Shown here piece after piece: positions 28,545-36,381 of a stretch of 64,000 nt of DNA. Within the stretch, counting starts at the first letter, position 1. Each line of letters begins with the position of its first letter. The notes below the pieces were generated by a model. The model did no database searches. It saw only the letters and a list, made by a program, of their open reading frames with translations, and was not told the origin of the DNA. Made by a program: the position numbers and the translations under genes. Source of the stretch: Prolixibacteraceae bacterium (GTDB taxonomy: Bacteria; Bacteroidota; Bacteroidia; Bacteroidales; Prolixibacteraceae); the NCBI GenBank assembly GCA_028683385.1, contig JAQUIJ010000001.1, forward strand, positions 1 to 64,000. The letters run 5' to 3'.

Positions 28545-30020
28545 TTATACAATACTTTTCATCGCGGTCATTTCGGCGCGCAATTCTTCGCCAATGATTT
28601 CAACATCGTGGTAACGAATAATTTCGTTTACACTGATCAGTTGTTTGTTGTCAACACCATTACCTTTGCCGGCTCCGTATGGTTTTCCAATCACGTCGGT
28701 GTCGATTTTCGACATGAAGTCGGCCAACAGCGGCTTGCAGGCATGATCGAATAAATAACAACCATATTCGGCAGTATCAGAAATTACACGGTTCATTTCG
28801 AACAGTTTTTTGCGTGCAATTGTATTTGCGATAAGCGGAGTTTCGTGCAGTGATTCGTAATAAGCAGATTCTTCCTTAATACCAGCTTCTGTCATGGTTT
28901 CGAAAGCCAACTCAACGCCTGATTTTACGAAAGCAATCATCAGCACACCATTGTCGAAGTATTCCTGTTCGCTGATTTCCATGGTTCCGGCAGGAGTTTT
29001 TTCGAAAGCTGTTTCGCCAGTTTCTGCTCTCCAGGTCAACAGGTTTTTATCGTCGTTCGCCCAGTCTTCCATCATAGTTTTCGAGAAATGACCCGACATG
29101 ATATCGTCCATGTGTTTCTGGAACAACGGGCGCATAATACGTTTCAATTCTTCGGAAAGTTCAAAAGCTTTAATTTTTGCTGGATTCGATAAGCGATCCA
29201 TCATGTTGGTGATACCTCCGTGTTTCAAAGCTTCGGTAATTACTTCCCAACCGTACTGAACCAATTTTGAAGCATAACCTGCATCAATTCCCTTTTCAAC
29301 CATCTTGTTGAACGACAGGATTGAACCCGTTTGCAACAAACCACAAAGAATGGTTTGCTCGCCCATCAAATCCGATTTTACTTCGGCAACAAACGATGAA
29401 CTCAAAACGCCTGCTTTGTGACCACCAGTAGCAGCAGCATATGCTTTCGCAATTTCGAAACCATCTTTATTCGGGTCGTTTTCAGGATGAACCGCAATTA
29501 AGGTAGGCACACCGAAACCGCGTTTGTACTCTTCGCGAACTTCAGAACCCGGTGATTTTGGGGCAACCATAATTACGGTAATGTCTTTGCGGATCTGCAT
29601 TCCTTCTTCAACGATATTGAAACCGTGTGAATAAGAAAGCGTTGCTCCTTTTTTGATTAAGGGCATCACAGCATTAATTACGCCAGTGTGTTGTTTATCC
29701 GGAGTGAGGTTGATTACCAAATCAGCAGTCGGGATCATTTCTTCATAAGTCCCAACCTTGAAACCGTTTGAAGTTGCGTTTTTATATGACTGACGTTGCT
29801 CTTTAATTGCTTCTGCCCGTAAAGTATACGAAACATCCAGACCTGAATCGCGCATGTTCAAACCCTGATTTAAACCCTGAGCGCCGCAACCGATGATTAC
29901 GATTTTTTTGCCTTCCAGCTTTTTAACGCCATCAGCAAACTCCGAACTGTCCATAAATTCGCAGGTTCCAAGCTGTTCTAACTGAAGACGCAACGGAAGT
30001 GTGTTGAAATAATTTGCCAT
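28545..30020 (-). CDS. ilvC: ketol-acid reductoisomerase, class II (long form)
   Basis: Second step of isoleucine/valine synthesis: NADPH- and Mg2+-dependent isomeroreduction of acetolactate or acetohydroxybutyrate. At 491 residues it is the long (class II) form with a duplicated C-terminal knotted domain. The nucleotide-binding motif is [20 protein letters not shown]; metal ligands lie in [12 protein letters not shown] and the later repeat. Unlike ilvD-ilvB-ilvN, which lie 3.4 kb upstream on the same strand, it is separated by an AraC regulator and a DUF4251 gene, and so has its own promoter. Confidence 0.97.
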
Positions 30021-31170: not shown

Positions 31171-31713
31171 CTATAAATGCTGGCCTACATACACTGAAGA
31201 TTTTTCCCAGGGGACAAAATCACCGTCAAAGGTCAGTCTGCCAGAACTCATTCCTGTCAATGTCGCTGTTCCTCTTCCTGAGGCAGAAATATTAATAAAC
31301 AAGTCGTAAATACCAATCGTAGTCATCACATTCATCCTTAAGGTAAATGCCTTGTGCTTTTCATCCTCAGTTAATTCCCACTTATTAATATTGCCTTTGG
31401 CAGTAACTCCACCAACTCCATTTGGACCTATTCTGAAATTCGACCCAATTTGAATAGTAGCTTCTGTTGAATCGACAGCGACAAAGTTAATCGTGGAATT
31501 TACGAGGACTCGGTTACCATACCGGTCTTGTAAATAATTGGCCTGTAACACGAAATCCTTATTCTCCAGCATTGTTTTGGTCTGCTGAAAATCTTTTTCA
31601 AGATCAGCGTTCCGCTTTTCCTTTTTAGTTAGAGCAGCGTTTTCATCATTTCCCTGAGCAAATAAGATACTTGTTGAAACGATGAGTGCAAAAAATACAA
31701 CAAATCTTTTCAT
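31171..31713 (-). CDS. DUF4251 domain-containing secreted protein
   Basis: A 180-residue protein with signal peptide MKRFVVFFALIVSTSILF (cleavage after AQ). The mature part matches DUF4251: the charged helix KKEKRNADLEKDFQQTKTML, then FVLQANYLQDRYGNRVLVNS, GNINKWELTEDEKHKAFTL and the C-terminal GRLTFDGDFVPWE. The family is restricted largely to Bacteroidota and has no known function; probably periplasmic. Single gene. Confidence 0.85.
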   Translation of the reverse strand: MKRFVVFFALIVSTSILFAQGNDENAALTKKEKRNADLEKDFQQTKTMLENKDFVLQANYLQDRYGNRVLVNSTINFVAVDSTEATIQIGSNFRIGPNGVGGVTAKGNINKWELTEDEKHKAFTLRMNVMTTIGIYDLFINISASGRGTATLTGMSSGRLTFDGDFVPWEKSSVYVGQHL

Positions 31714-31964: not shown

Positions 31965-32507
31965 CTAATCCACCTGTTCGAGCATGGCATCGCGTTCTTG
32001 CAGGAATACCGAAAGCCTTTCGATGGTACTACGGGTAATGGCAACCCTTCCGGAGCGTATAAATTGGGTGACTCCAAAAGCATTCAATTCGTCAAACAAC
32101 TTTTGAGTTTCATTCGAATGACCGGTTTTTTCGATTACCACATATTCGCGGGTAACTTCAAGGATTCGCGCTCCCGAATTACGTACAATCTTCTCCACTT
32201 CATCCGAATCGAACAAAAATTCAGTCGAAACTTTATACAGGGCAATTTCCTGATAAATCATTTCATCGTTCGTATTGGCAAAAACTTTCAGAACATCAAC
32301 TATTTTCTCCAGTTGCCCAACAACTTTTTCAACCCTGTCCGCAGTTTCGCGAATCACAATGGTGAATTTAAAAACTCCGGCAATAGCCGATTCCGAAACC
32401 GTTAAACTGTCGATATTGATTTTCCGTCGTGTAAAAACAATGGTTATCCTACTTAATAATCCAATATGGTCTTCCGAAAAAACGGTTATGATATATTCTT
32501 GTTTCAT
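31965..32507 (-). CDS. ilvN: acetolactate synthase small (regulatory) subunit
   Basis: Regulatory subunit of acetohydroxyacid synthase, 180 residues. The N-terminal ACT domain is plain (YIITVFSEDHIGLLSRITIV, RRKINIDSLTVSES), the site for valine feedback inhibition; the C-terminal domain (LYKVSTEFLFDSDEVEKIV to GRVAITRS) stimulates the large subunit. It starts 12 bases after the ilvB stop codon, the last gene of the operon. Confidence 0.95.
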   Translation of the reverse strand: MKQEYIITVFSEDHIGLLSRITIVFTRRKINIDSLTVSESAIAGVFKFTIVIRETADRVEKVVGQLEKIVDVLKVFANTNDEMIYQEIALYKVSTEFLFDSDEVEKIVRNSGARILEVTREYVVIEKTGHSNETQKLFDELNAFGVTQFIRSGRVAITRSTIERLSVFLQERDAMLEQVD

Positions 32508-32519
32508 GTCAGTATTGAT

Positions 32520-34217
32520 TTAAGGTTCGAGTAAAATATCTGAGATTGAAGCTCCGGTCGGAATCATTGGAAAAACATTATCTTCCTGTTCAACAACCAC
32601 TTCAAGTACATATGGACCATTATGATCGAGCATTTCCTGAATAGCACCTTCCAACTGATCGCGTGAAGTTACTTTCTGTGATGCTAATCCGTAAGCTTTG
32701 GCAATTCCAACAAAATCAGGGTTTTTCATTTCAGTAAACGAATACCGCTTTTCGAAGAACAATTGCTGCCACTGACGAACCATACCTAAAAAATTATTAT
32801 TCAGGATGATGATTTTAACGTCCAAATTATATTGCGAAATCGTTCCCAATTCCTGAATGGTCATCTGAAACCCTCCATCGCCCGACATCGAAAATACGGT
32901 ACGATCAGGACGGCCAATTTTAGCGCCCATTGCAGCAGGTAAACCATAACCCATCGTACCAAGTCCTCCGGAAGTGACATTACTTCTGGATTGGGTAAAT
33001 TTAAAATAACGTGAGGCAATCATTTGTTGCTGACCAACATCGGTAACCAGAATTGCATCGTTATTTGTTTTTTCTGAAGCAATGCGCACCACTTCACCCA
33101 TGGTAAGTCCAACCTTTTTCGGATGAATGTCGTGCGAAATCACCTTATCGTATTCAATTTTATCACAAGCCCTAAATTCATTGAGCCATTCCTGATGCGA
33201 GTTTGAATTTACATTATCAATCAGCATCCGGAGTGATTTTTTTGCATTTCCTAAAACCGGAGCATCGGCATGTATAATTTTATTGATTTCTGCAGGATCG
33301 ACTTCAAGATGTACAATTTTAGCCTGACGGGCATATGCCGCCACTTTCCCGGTTACCCGGTCGTCGAAACGCATTCCAATGGCAATAACCACATCAGCTT
33401 CGTTGGTTTTGATATTCGGGCCATAATTGCCATGCATTCCAAGCATTCCAACATTTAGTGGATGATCGCTCGGAAGTGCTGAAAGTCCCAGTAAAGTCCA
33501 GGCTGCCGGTATTCCGGTTTTTTCAACAAACTCTTTCAATTCAGCTTCGGCACCTCCCAAAACAACACCATGACCAAACAAAACAATTGGTTTTTTTGCT
33601 TCGTTAATAATATCGGCGGCAGCTTTTACCTGAAACGGATCAACAGGATATTCAGGTAGATAGCTTCTGATTTTAGTGCATTTTTTATACTCAAAATCGA
33701 TCTGAGCAAACTGAGCATCTTTCGCAATATCAATCAATACTGGGCCCGGACGGCCAGTAAGGGCAATGTGAAAGGCCTTGGCAATTGCGTCAGGAATCTC
33801 TTCAGCGTGGGTAACCTGATAATTCCATTTGGTCACCGGTAACGAAATACCCACCACGTCTGATTCCTGAAAAGCATCGGTTCCGAGCAATGGTGATGCA
33901 ACCTGACCTGTGATACAAACCAATGGAATTGAATCGATCAGTGCATCGGCCAAACCGGTTATCAGGTTAGTTGCCCCTGGACCCGAAGTTGCAAAGCAAA
34001 CACCGACTTTCCCGGTTACTTTTGCATAACCTTCGGCAGCATGAATTGCTCCCTGTTCGTGCCGGGTGAGGTAGTGAGTTACTTCCTGGTCGTAATCGTA
34101 CAGTGCATCATAAATGGGCATGATTGCACCTCCCGGATACCCAAAAATAGTATCAACCCCTTCCTCCAAAAGAGATTTTATAACGGCTTCGGAGCCGCTT
34201 ATTCGCTGTGTTGCCAT
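32520..34217 (-). CDS. ilvB: acetolactate synthase large (catalytic) subunit
   Basis: Thiamine diphosphate-dependent AHAS catalytic subunit, 565 residues, making acetolactate (valine/leucine) and acetohydroxybutyrate (isoleucine). The N-terminal TPP domain has DTIFGYPGGAIMPIYDAL and the catalytic Glu in THYLTRHEQGAIHAAEGYA; the middle domain binds FAD; the C-terminal TPP motif is SGDGGFQMTIQELGT...NNNFLG. It lies 126 bases after ilvD with direct repeats between, and 12 bases before ilvN. Confidence 0.97.
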   Translation of the reverse strand: MATQRISGSEAVIKSLLEEGVDTIFGYPGGAIMPIYDALYDYDQEVTHYLTRHEQGAIHAAEGYAKVTGKVGVCFATSGPGATNLITGLADALIDSIPLVCITGQVASPLLGTDAFQESDVVGISLPVTKWNYQVTHAEEIPDAIAKAFHIALTGRPGPVLIDIAKDAQFAQIDFEYKKCTKIRSYLPEYPVDPFQVKAAADIINEAKKPIVLFGHGVVLGGAEAELKEFVEKTGIPAAWTLLGLSALPSDHPLNVGMLGMHGNYGPNIKTNEADVVIAIGMRFDDRVTGKVAAYARQAKIVHLEVDPAEINKIIHADAPVLGNAKKSLRMLIDNVNSNSHQEWLNEFRACDKIEYDKVISHDIHPKKVGLTMGEVVRIASEKTNNDAILVTDVGQQQMIASRYFKFTQSRSNVTSGGLGTMGYGLPAAMGAKIGRPDRTVFSMSGDGGFQMTIQELGTISQYNLDVKIIILNNNFLGMVRQWQQLFFEKRYSFTEMKNPDFVGIAKAYGLASQKVTSRDQLEGAIQEMLDHNGPYVLEVVVEQEDNVFPMIPTGASISDILLEP

Positions 34218-34343: not shown

Positions 34344-36173
34344 TTATTCAATCAACCTGATCGCTCCCCGATCGGCTGAGGAAACCATGCTGGCATAGGC
34401 TTTCAACGCCTTACTCACCATACGGTCGCGTGGAGCTGGCAGATATGCCATATTGCCTTTGGCGACTTCCTGTTCTCTGCGAGCAGCCAATTCTTCATCA
34501 CTTAGCAGAACATCTATCTTGCGTGTCAGGATATCGATTTCGATTAAGTCGCCATCCTGAATCAAAGCAATTTCACCGCCAGCGGCTGCTTCCGGAGAAA
34601 CATGCCCAATCGACAATCCCGATGTTCCGCCTGAAAAACGTCCGTCGGTAATTAACGCACAAGCTTTGCCAAGGTTCATTGATTTGATGTACGAAGTTGG
34701 ATACAACATTTCCTGCATTCCCGGACCGCCCTTCGGTCCTTCATAAATGATGACTACAACATCTCCGGCCTGGACTTTGTCGCCAAGAATTCCGTTGCAG
34801 GCATCGTCCTGCGATTGGAATACCTTGGCAGTTCCTTTAAAATGATATACTGAAGGATCAACACCTGCTGTTTTAACGATACAGCCATTCCGGGCAATAT
34901 TGCCGTACAGAACAGCCAAACCACCATCTTTGTTGTAGGCATGCTCGTAATCGCGGATACAACCGTTGGCACGGTCGGTATCCAATTCTTTAAAATAATT
35001 TTCCTGCGATCCCATAACCAGATTACGACCTCCTCCTGGAGCTGATTTATATCTCCGGAAAGCATCTTCGATCGCTGTTGGAGCCATCACATCGTATTTG
35101 GCAATTGCTTCGCCCAACGTATTTCCATCGGCACGGGGAACTGAAGTATCGAGCATACCAGCACGTGAAAGCTCAGCTAAAATACCAAGGATTCCACCGG
35201 CACGGTTTACATCTTCCATGTGGTAATTTCCACTTGGAGCAACCTTGCAGAGATTTGGGGTAACGCGCGATAATTCGTCAATGTCTTTCATTGTAAAATC
35301 GACTTCACCTTCTGACGCAATAGCCAAAATATGCAATACCGTATTGGTTGAACCACCCATTGCAATATCCAGTTTCATCGCATTCTGGAAAGCAGCTTTT
35401 GTGGCAATATTTCGTGGCAAAACCTTTTCATTGCCATCTTTGTAATATTCATAAGTCATATCAACAATCCGATTAGCAGCCTCATCGAACAGACGCTTAC
35501 GATTTGCGTGTGTTGCCAGAATAGAACCGTTTCCCGGAAGAGCCAATCCAAGCGCTTCGGCCAGACAATTCATAGAGTTCGCGGTAAACATTCCTGAACA
35601 AGAACCGCAGGTTGGACAAGCATCGCGTTCAACTTTTGAAATTTGCGCATCGGAAACTGAGTTATCAGCGGCCATCACCATGGCATCAACTAAATCGTAC
35701 ATTTTACCATCAATCTTACCAGCTTCCATAGGACCACCAGATACAAAGATGACAGGGATATTGAGACGCATGGCAGCCATCATCATTCCGGGTGTAATTT
35801 TATCGCAGTTTGAAATGCAAACCATCGCATCGGCACGATGAGCATTGCACATAAATTCAACGCTATCGGCTATTACATCACGTGATGGCAACGAATACAA
35901 CATTCCGTCGTGTCCCATGGCAATTCCATCGTCAATGGCAATGGTGTTGAATTCTGCCGCGAAACAACCTTTTTTCTCGATGATTCCTTTGATATACTGA
36001 CCAACTTCATGAAGATGAGCATGTCCGGGAACAAATTGTGTAAACGAATTGACGATCGCAATTACAGGCCGTCCAAAATGTTCTTCCTTCATTCCATTTG
36101 CTCTCCAGAGGCTTCTTGCTCCAGCCATACGCCGTCCTTCGGTCGTTGTAGCTGATCTCAATCGATTTTGCAT
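34344..36173 (-). CDS. ilvD: dihydroxy-acid dehydratase
   Basis: Third common step of valine/isoleucine synthesis, an Fe-S dehydratase of 609 residues. Cluster-binding cysteines lie in [14 protein letters not shown] and [39 protein letters not shown] carries the conserved active-site region. First structural gene of ilvD-ilvB-ilvN. Its transcription must pass the leader terminator at 36200-36235, so it is under attenuation control. As a labile Fe-S enzyme it is a known target of nitric oxide damage, relevant to the RIC genes in the window. Confidence 0.97.
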
Positions 36174-36199: not shown

Positions 36200-36235
36200 A
36201 AAAAAAAGCCCTTCTCATCAAATGAGAAAGGCTTT
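36200..36235 (-). terminator. attenuator terminator of the ilv operon
   Basis: Read on the minus strand, AAAGCCTTTCTCAT (36235-36222) pairs with ATGAGAAGGGCTTT (36218-36205), 14 base pairs with one U-G wobble and a 3-base loop, and runs into eight T. It lies between the leader peptide and ilvD, 27 bases before the ilvD start. The 5' arm can instead pair with AATGAGAA at 36268-36261 near the leader stop codon. Confidence 0.92.
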
Positions 36236-36263
36236 CAAGTTTTTAGCTTACATTATACCATTC

Positions 36264-36329
36264 TCATTCAGCACGAAGGAGGACCACCACGCTGATAATG
36301 ACTAGAGATATAATGCTGATATTTTTCAT
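36264..36329 (-). CDS. ilv operon leader peptide (attenuation)
   Basis: A 21-codon open frame, ATG at 36327-36329 and TGA at 36264-36266. It encodes a peptide starting MKN with the core ISIISLVIISVVVLL and ending RAE: 5 Ile, 4 Val and 3 Leu, so 12 of 21 residues are branched-chain. From memory, the core closely resembles the E. coli ilvGMEDA leader (ISLVVISVVVII). Its translation would sense charged tRNA-Ile, -Val and -Leu. Stalling frees the AATGAGAA segment to form an antiterminator; reaching the stop codon, which lies inside that segment, blocks it and lets the terminator at 36200 form. The peptide itself probably has no further role. Confidence 0.9.
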   Translation of the reverse strand: MKNISIISLVIISVVVLLRAE

Positions 36330-36351: not shown

Positions 36352-36381
36352 CAAATGTAGAAATTAATTTGAACAACCAAA
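36352..36381 (-). promoter_or_regulatory. promoter of the ilv leader/operon
   Basis: On the minus strand TTTG (36381-36378) and TACATTTG (36359-36352) match the Bacteroidota -33 (TTTG) and -7 (TAnnTTTG) boxes with an 18-base spacer. Transcription would start near 36345, about 16 bases before the leader ATG. Confidence 0.7.

Follow-up and report, generated by a model that had tools for sequence, protein, structure and literature searches.

The short minus-strand frame at 36329-36264 is highly likely to be the leader peptide of a ribosome-mediated transcription attenuator of the ilvDBN operon. It lies in a 64-kb stretch of DNA, here called the window, between a Bacteroidota-type promoter and a strong terminator, upstream of ilvDBN. 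The preliminary description of this locus had already proposed a branched-chain leader peptide of an attenuator, and three lines of evidence support that. These are a frame rich in isoleucine, leucine and valine (ILV) codons that is conserved in relatives, an antiterminator that covaries with the terminator, and a biased choice of codons in the leaders. Together they fit ribosome-mediated transcription attenuation. Such a switch very probably lets a Bacteroidales bacterium make Ile, Val and Leu only when these are short.

The frame runs from ATG to TGA and has 21 codons before the stop. The encoded peptide, MKNISIISLVIISVVVLLRAE, has five Ile, four Val and three Leu, so that 12 of its 21 codons are ILV codons. 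The coordinates and both codon counts given in the preliminary description turned out to be exact when the sequence was read again. Its placing of the frame between a promoter and a terminator before ilvD was likewise borne out, with the promoter boxes, a 15-bp hairpin and the ilvD ATG (at 36173) all read from the sequence. The gap between the frame and ilvD is 90 nt. Table 1 lists the features.

Table 1. Features of the ilvD leader region and the ilv genes downstream of it, with the relatives that carry two modules in series.
Feature	Position	Strand	Details
Promoter, -33 box TTTG	36378..36381	-	read from sequence
Promoter, -7 box TACATTTG	36352..36359	-	consensus TAnnTTTG; read from sequence
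Leader peptide ORF MKNISIISLVIISVVVLLRAE	36264..36329	-	12 Ile/Val/Leu codons; read from sequence
Segment 1, 5' arm of pause hairpin	36307..36316	-	in leader ORF codons 5-8; fold
Segment 2, antiterminator half round the stop codon, ATGAGAATGGT	36257..36267	-	one unpaired T; duplex, fold
3' arm of pause hairpin, GGTATAATGT	36250..36259	-	overlaps segment 2; fold
Segment 3, 5' arm of terminator	36222..36232	-	common to antiterminator; duplex, fold, covariation
Intrinsic terminator hairpin (3:4)	36204..36236	-	15 pairs, -19.2 kcal/mol; overlaps T-run 36207-36200
ilvD, dihydroxy-acid dehydratase	34344..36173	-	NF009103 1053 bits, TIGR00110 793.5 bits
ilvB, acetolactate synthase large subunit	32520..34217	-	TIGR00118 738.7 bits
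ilvN, acetolactate synthase small subunit	31965..32507	-	TIGR00119 103.5 bits, above its cut-off
ilvC, ketol-acid reductoisomerase	28545..30020	-	further downstream; NF003557 929 bits
Tandem loci in relatives	L007, L009-L011, L013-L017, L021, L027, L091, L169, L191, L202, L240		upstream of ilvD

Downstream of the leader the gene order is ilvD, ilvB, ilvN, an unmatched ORF, an AraC-type gene and ilvC. The unmatched ORF has 180 codons (31171-31713) and no match in NCBIfam. The IlvC and IlvD proteins of the window are both long forms, with PRK05225 and PRK12448 as their best NCBIfam models.

A frame of this composition rarely arises by chance. If the slot before the terminator is shuffled and the terminator is kept, an ORF with at least 11/14 ILV appears in 3 of 5,000 shuffles. 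Both strands of the 64-kb window hold no other terminator-linked small ORF above 8/14 ILV.

For comparison with relatives, upstream regions were collected through matches to IlvD. In the window's family 76 of 80 genomes matched, of which 72 were used, including the window's own; four with fragmented matches were left out. The search of the order matched 69 of 148 genomes; 60 of these, all outside the family, supplied 61 upstream regions. Two of the excluded matches were family members already counted, and seven were paralogous, split or short. The phylum search matched 147 of 198 genomes; 41 of the matches belong to other orders of the class, and 26 of these were used. For the other classes of the phylum the 29 best loci were taken. 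A search of GTDB contigs added the best 80 loci among those listed, which partly repeat genomes of the other samples.

A module was defined as a terminator with an ORF of 8-45 codons just before it that has at least 8/14 ILV. The finder needs five T in a row, and it misses some cases that look real by eye, such as L098.

The conserved Ile/Val/Leu frame that the preliminary description had proposed looking for in relatives is indeed there. The module precedes ilvD in 70 of the 72 family regions, the two misses being L208, a 40-nt stretch, and L242. It also does so in 45 of 61 regions from other families of the order, with none reported by the finder in the other 16. The best GTDB loci have it in 65 cases out of 80; nine of the 15 misses carry the title Spirochaetes, Desulfobacterota or Fibrobacter(es), and the miss at L033 has only 113 nt of upstream DNA. 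Further away, regions from other orders of the class have the module in 7 cases out of 26 (none by the finder in 19), and the 29 best loci of other classes have it in 1. Over all taxa, 175 of 252 distinct upstream regions have a module, versus 8 of 1,260 shuffled sequences; among reverse complements it is 5 of 252. When the last terminator is left in place, the counts are 173 of 198 for real sequences versus 299 of 3,960 for shuffled ones.

In the other orders, ILV frames with terminators stand before an ilvD of the shorter type (L246, L247, L248, L250, L259, L261, L265). A separate set of loci titled Spirochaetes or Desulfobacterota (L079, L080, L086, L094, L095, L100, L101) has an IlvD at 69-73% identity and no detected leader. 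The IlvD loci with these titles may reflect transfer of ilvD between phyla, or misbinned contigs.

The two promoter boxes of the window are 18 nt apart, and the -7 box ends 22 nt before the leader start codon. TTTG and TACATTTG match what we take to be the Bacteroidota -33/-7 consensus. The -7 form TAnnTTTG is named in extracts of PMC9723704. Some loci carry two modules, and among the 154 first-module leaders 129 have TAnnTTTG within 80 nt upstream, versus 6.5% of shuffles. In 111 of the 154 there is also a TTG 14-28 nt upstream of that box. A generic scanner, built to recognise sigma-70 boxes and T that follow the stem, saw no promoter at TTTG/TACATTTG and no terminator at the leader. Our guess is that it missed the terminator through the overlap of stem and T-run.

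The RNA spanning 36350-36195 has a folding energy of -47.4 kcal/mol (z = -4.85), and 0 of 200 shuffles fold as well. Its terminator hairpin begins 27 nt past the leader stop codon, overlaps with its end the eight T at 36207-36200, and leaves the ilvD start about 30 nt beyond the stem. The pause hairpin (1:2) has a 10-bp outer stem in which codons 5-8 pair with nucleotides after the stop. This stem closes a longer hairpin of -24.6 kcal/mol in the absence of the terminator. The third pairing is the antiterminator (2:3). These predicted alternative pairings are those of classical attenuation.

In the window itself, the 2:3 duplex is imperfect. It comes to -12.2 kcal/mol (z -1.9), 4 of 100 shuffles pair as well, and it contains a T.T mismatch. 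Both the terminator and the pause hairpin are more stable, which means that kinetics must decide. With a ribosome modelled on Val10 or Leu17 and the RNA present up to the 5' arm of the terminator, 2:3 forms (-11.3 and -10.1 kcal/mol). With the ribosome modelled on the stop codon, it does not (-0.4 kcal/mol). Both outcomes are what the attenuation model calls for. Once the 3' arm is present too, the terminator is the stablest form in every ribosome placement tried. The attenuation model therefore requires 2:3 to form first.

The relatives were examined in the same way. Across 172 modules, the antiterminator duplex has a mean of -12.6 kcal/mol and a mean z of -3.05. In 122 of these modules no more than 5 of 100 shuffles equal the pairing, and in the other 50 more than 5 do. 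The starting positions of segment 2 gather at the stop codon. The terminator arms vary by lineage (CCTTTCTC, CCATTCT, CTTTCCGG, GCCGATTT, AGCCCTCC), and segment 2 changes along with them. This covariation was quantified on one module per distinct arm core (n=56), using the arms of other modules as permuted partners. Paired with its own terminator arm, the antiterminator reaches -12.3 kcal/mol versus -8.6 kcal/mol when permuted, and 0 of 5,000 permutations attain the real value. The locus combines a short ILV-rich ORF, an intrinsic terminator and a stop-codon antiterminator, with the last imperfect for the window alone.

The proposed mechanism is as follows. RNA polymerase would start at the TTTG/TACATTTG promoter, with a ribosome following on the 21-codon frame. 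With ample charged Ile-, Val- and Leu-tRNA, the ribosome would get to the stop codon and cover segment 2. The terminator (3:4) would then form, and transcription would end before ilvD. If one of the charged tRNAs is short, the ribosome would stall in the ILV run and open the pause hairpin. Segment 2, now free, would pair with segment 3, so that no terminator forms and ilvDBN is transcribed. Without any translation, 1:2 and 3:4 would both form, and the operon would stay off. From what was computed, which is to say the frame, the alternative pairings with their conservation and covariation, and the codon bias, we infer translation of the frame and stalling within it. Which of the three amino acids is most important, and how large the effect is, would have to be inferred likewise.

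Codon choice in the 172 distinct leaders differs strongly from that in genes. For valine, GTC makes up 51% in leaders versus 12% in genes. For leucine, CTC stands at 26% versus 8-11% and CTA at 20% versus 3-5%, and TTG is down to 4% versus 22-28%. Compared with the window's genes, CTG is also low (8% versus 24%), and TTA is nearly level (14% versus 16%). GTT is another valine codon that the 172 leader frames avoid relative to the window's genes.

It is conceivable that RNA structure dictates these codons, and the actual leaders indeed fold better than versions recoded with synonymous codons (n=171, mean z -1.79). The bias persists where the third base is unpaired, however, with GTC at 52% and CTA at 25%. 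Structure therefore contributes, but as the whole cause of the bias it was rejected.

The window's genome has 50 tRNA matches. These include one gene each for tRNA-Leu GAG, TAG, CAG, CAA and TAA, and one each for tRNA-Val GAC and TAC. There is no tRNA-Ile among the 50, which is taken for a gap in the assembly or in the search. We expect the enriched codons to be read by Leu-GAG, Leu-TAG and Val-GAC.

A short hydrophobic frame before a terminator can be read in other ways. It could encode a small membrane peptide made for its own sake, with the terminator just ending a short transcript. MKNISIISLVIISVVVLLRAE is hydrophobic with a charged start, and small membrane proteins of some 21 residues exist. 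The composition does not agree, however. The 14-residue cores of the 172 leaders are 76% I+L+V, part of this excess being there by construction because the cores were selected for ILV, with F at 2%, A at 2% and G at 0.5%. By comparison, 33 membrane-like segments from the window's long ORFs have 46% I+L+V, 9% F, 11% A and 8% G. Nor is the order of residues kept between genera. The stop-codon antiterminator covaries with the terminator, and uncommon codons are favoured. On composition and RNA covariation, a membrane peptide was judged very unlikely. The leader could also act on translation, Rho or mRNA stability instead of on the intrinsic terminator, and leaders of such kinds are generally known from other bacteria. 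But here a U-run terminator of -19.2 kcal/mol stands between frame and gene and has an arm in common with the antiterminator, with ilvD starting about 30 nt beyond its stem, and this makes action by another route quite improbable. A T-box, riboswitch or other described RNA family was rejected, as the Rfam 15 covariance models gave 0 matches over gathering score in the 64-kb window.

The leader might finally have been inherited or transferred, together with its genes, from a gammaproteobacterium. The preliminary description had called its core nearly that of E. coli IlvL. This holds as a description: ISLVIISVVVLL is identical to the IlvL core quoted there at 9 of 12 positions, a level which 349 of 100,000 residue shuffles of the window's leader (0.35%) also reach. 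In addition, the long forms of IlvD and IlvC have best models, PRK12448 and PRK05225, which we take to be enterobacterial-type. But among the leaders compared, the string ISL[VI]..SVVVLL occurs only in close relatives of the window. Those with an IlvD at least 90% identical share MKNISIISL[VI][ILV][IV]SVVVLL (15 loci, some of them one genome twice). L007, labelled as the same genus and with 83% IlvD identity, has MINNNIISANLVNVVVVLLRAE plus a second module. Other genera have strings such as MKISAIISNVVVLLVVVISQAK, MKLFSAYIIVLVVVILGTS, MRILSINILVLVTVILRIAERG or MKNLLNIVLVVVVVISEMK in the same slot, so that the ILV make-up is kept between genera and the residue order is not. The E. coli ilv leader model NF007744 (PRK10424) scores 16.3 bits versus a cut-off of 59 (residues 5-17, E = 0.0049), and no DNA match turned up in the E. 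coli genome collection. Among 171 distinct leaders, about 0.6 matches of at least 9/12 to IlvL are expected by chance; 2 at 9/12 were observed, and a further 8 at 8/12. Given the score below cut-off, a match that composition can account for and the lack of a DNA match, homology to IlvL was rejected as unsupported. The term proteobacterial-type leader, also from the preliminary description, finds no support, and gammaproteobacterial descent or transfer is hardly credible. The likeness to IlvL is best read as convergence under the same constraint or coincidence of composition, not as conserved sequence.

Some relatives carry not one attenuator but two. Two full modules in series precede ilvD in 19 loci, 16 of them distinct by their leaders, and in 14 of the 72 family regions. 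Each of these modules has its own ILV leader and its own terminator. There is no TAnnTTTG box between the modules in 18 of the 19 loci, L191 being the exception, so that one promoter probably serves both. A division of labour between Ile and Leu was considered and rejected as too weak: over the 19 tandem loci (16 distinct), the I/L/V totals of the two modules are 96/56/75 versus 76/68/63.

Two further loci, L008 and L012, have what appears to be decay of the second module. At about 60-160 nt before ilvD, its leader has lost some of its ILV codons, and the terminator and an antiterminator-like stretch stay. These second modules escape the finder, their leaders being below the ILV threshold.

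The window may descend from such an arrangement. A tree of 77 IlvD proteins was made by a quick method, and 20 of its 74 inner branches are weak. On this tree, the window and its close relatives, which carry a single module each or, in L033, where the contig ends, show none, sit inside a clade that is otherwise tandem or has a decayed second module. The exception is L039, whose contig stops too early to show a first module. Tandem modules also occur in L027, which stands at the base of the clade next to this one.

The single modules of L001-L006 were compared, part by part, with those of ten tandem loci. In 8-9 of the 10 the leader end and segment 2 are closer to those of module 1, and in 8-10 of the 10 the terminator is closer to that of module 2. 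The tandem loci were compared among themselves by this measure: fronts go with their own position in 84/90 and 85/90 cases, and terminators in 78/90 and 87/90. Compared with L007, the nearest tandem relative in the genus, the terminator is nearer module 2 in 4 of 6 and nearer module 1 in 2 of 6 (L002, L006), a weak point for the fusion considered below. In the window, segment 2 is of the module-1 type (AGAATGG), and the terminator is of the module-2 type (CCTTTCTC).

A deletion between modules would explain both this combination of a module-1 front with a module-2 terminator and the T.T mismatch. The window's single copy may be the fusion of a serial pair. The hybrid would have the leader and antiterminator of the first module and the terminator of the second. 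The fuller history, in which serial attenuators, each complete with ILV leader, antiterminator and terminator, stood behind one promoter in the ancestor of the window's clade, and the window and its close relatives collapsed the pair to a hybrid, leaving the mismatch, is tentative; we rate it a serious possibility that falls a little short of probable. If true, the ancestor would have had two independent starvation checks, with a steeper or AND-like response. With the serial modules, nature provides a setting in which to ask what a pair of consecutive attenuators computes.

Published work already hints at leader-peptide attenuation in Bacteroidota. For Flavobacterium psychrophilum, extracts of PMC9723704 mention strong clues for such attenuation before amino-acid operons; according to these extracts, phylum and proposed mechanism are in common with the ilvD leader. 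The term 'ilv' is absent from the main text as available, and an ilv example may be among the 64 structured 5' regions of its supplementary table. A map of B. thetaiotaomicron mentions long 5' UTRs with short ORFs that recall attenuation leaders (extracts of PMC7366714). A 2010 comparative study of bacterial attenuation, cited in the available part of PMC4833913, may already list cases from Bacteroidetes. Excerpts of PMC2864571 list the Bacteroid-trp RNA (RF01692) as a probable cis-regulatory RNA of Bacteroidetes. Going by its name it lies before trp genes, and the window differs from it in having no Rfam match.

Outside the phylum, the leader of Salmonella mgtCBR is long and has two short ORFs, and it is reported to govern transcription of its operon (extracts of PMC3641672). 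These tandem attenuators serve another operon and are not ILV leaders, whereas the serial modules of the window's relatives each have an ILV leader and a terminator of their own. The Corynebacterium ilvBNC operon is preceded by a leader ORF or hairpins, as excerpts of PMC10272879 and PMC11857589 put it. It is from another phylum and is likened here by description only. The extracts of open-licence literature that were searched contain no recognised description of a Bacteroidales ilvD leader or of serial ILV attenuators. With the present locus, classical attenuation gains a well-supported example that is widespread in one order, in a phylum for which the literature searched had only general hints. 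Short leader frames of this kind come to light when a search demands frame and terminator together and then checks for the antiterminator.

Among the closest known systems are the ilv and leu attenuators of enterobacteria, which consist of a control-codon frame, a pause hairpin, an antiterminator and an intrinsic terminator. The ilvD leader resembles them in all four, and in its biased codons. It is unlike the enterobacterial ilv attenuators in that the comparison shows no kinship of sequence beyond composition, ilvD is the first gene and the promoter is of the Bacteroidota type. Also unlike them, some relatives carry two modules in series.

The ilvGMEDA (IlvL), ilvBN and leu attenuators of enterobacteria are named in extracts of PMC1183508, which also state that the leu leader uses CUA control codons. 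In the theory given there, CUA is the most suitable control codon for the leu leader, CUG is less so, and UUG and UUA are worse; an experiment that replaced CUA by CUG in the leu attenuator is cited. The 172 leaders agree with this theory and with the cited experiment, being rich in CUA and poor in UUG and CUG; they depart from the theory in that UUA is not depleted. To a specialist, the serial modules and the control-codon bias would be the fresh parts. These leaders, which come from a distant phylum and are unrelated in sequence, let the choice of control codons be studied as a natural experiment.
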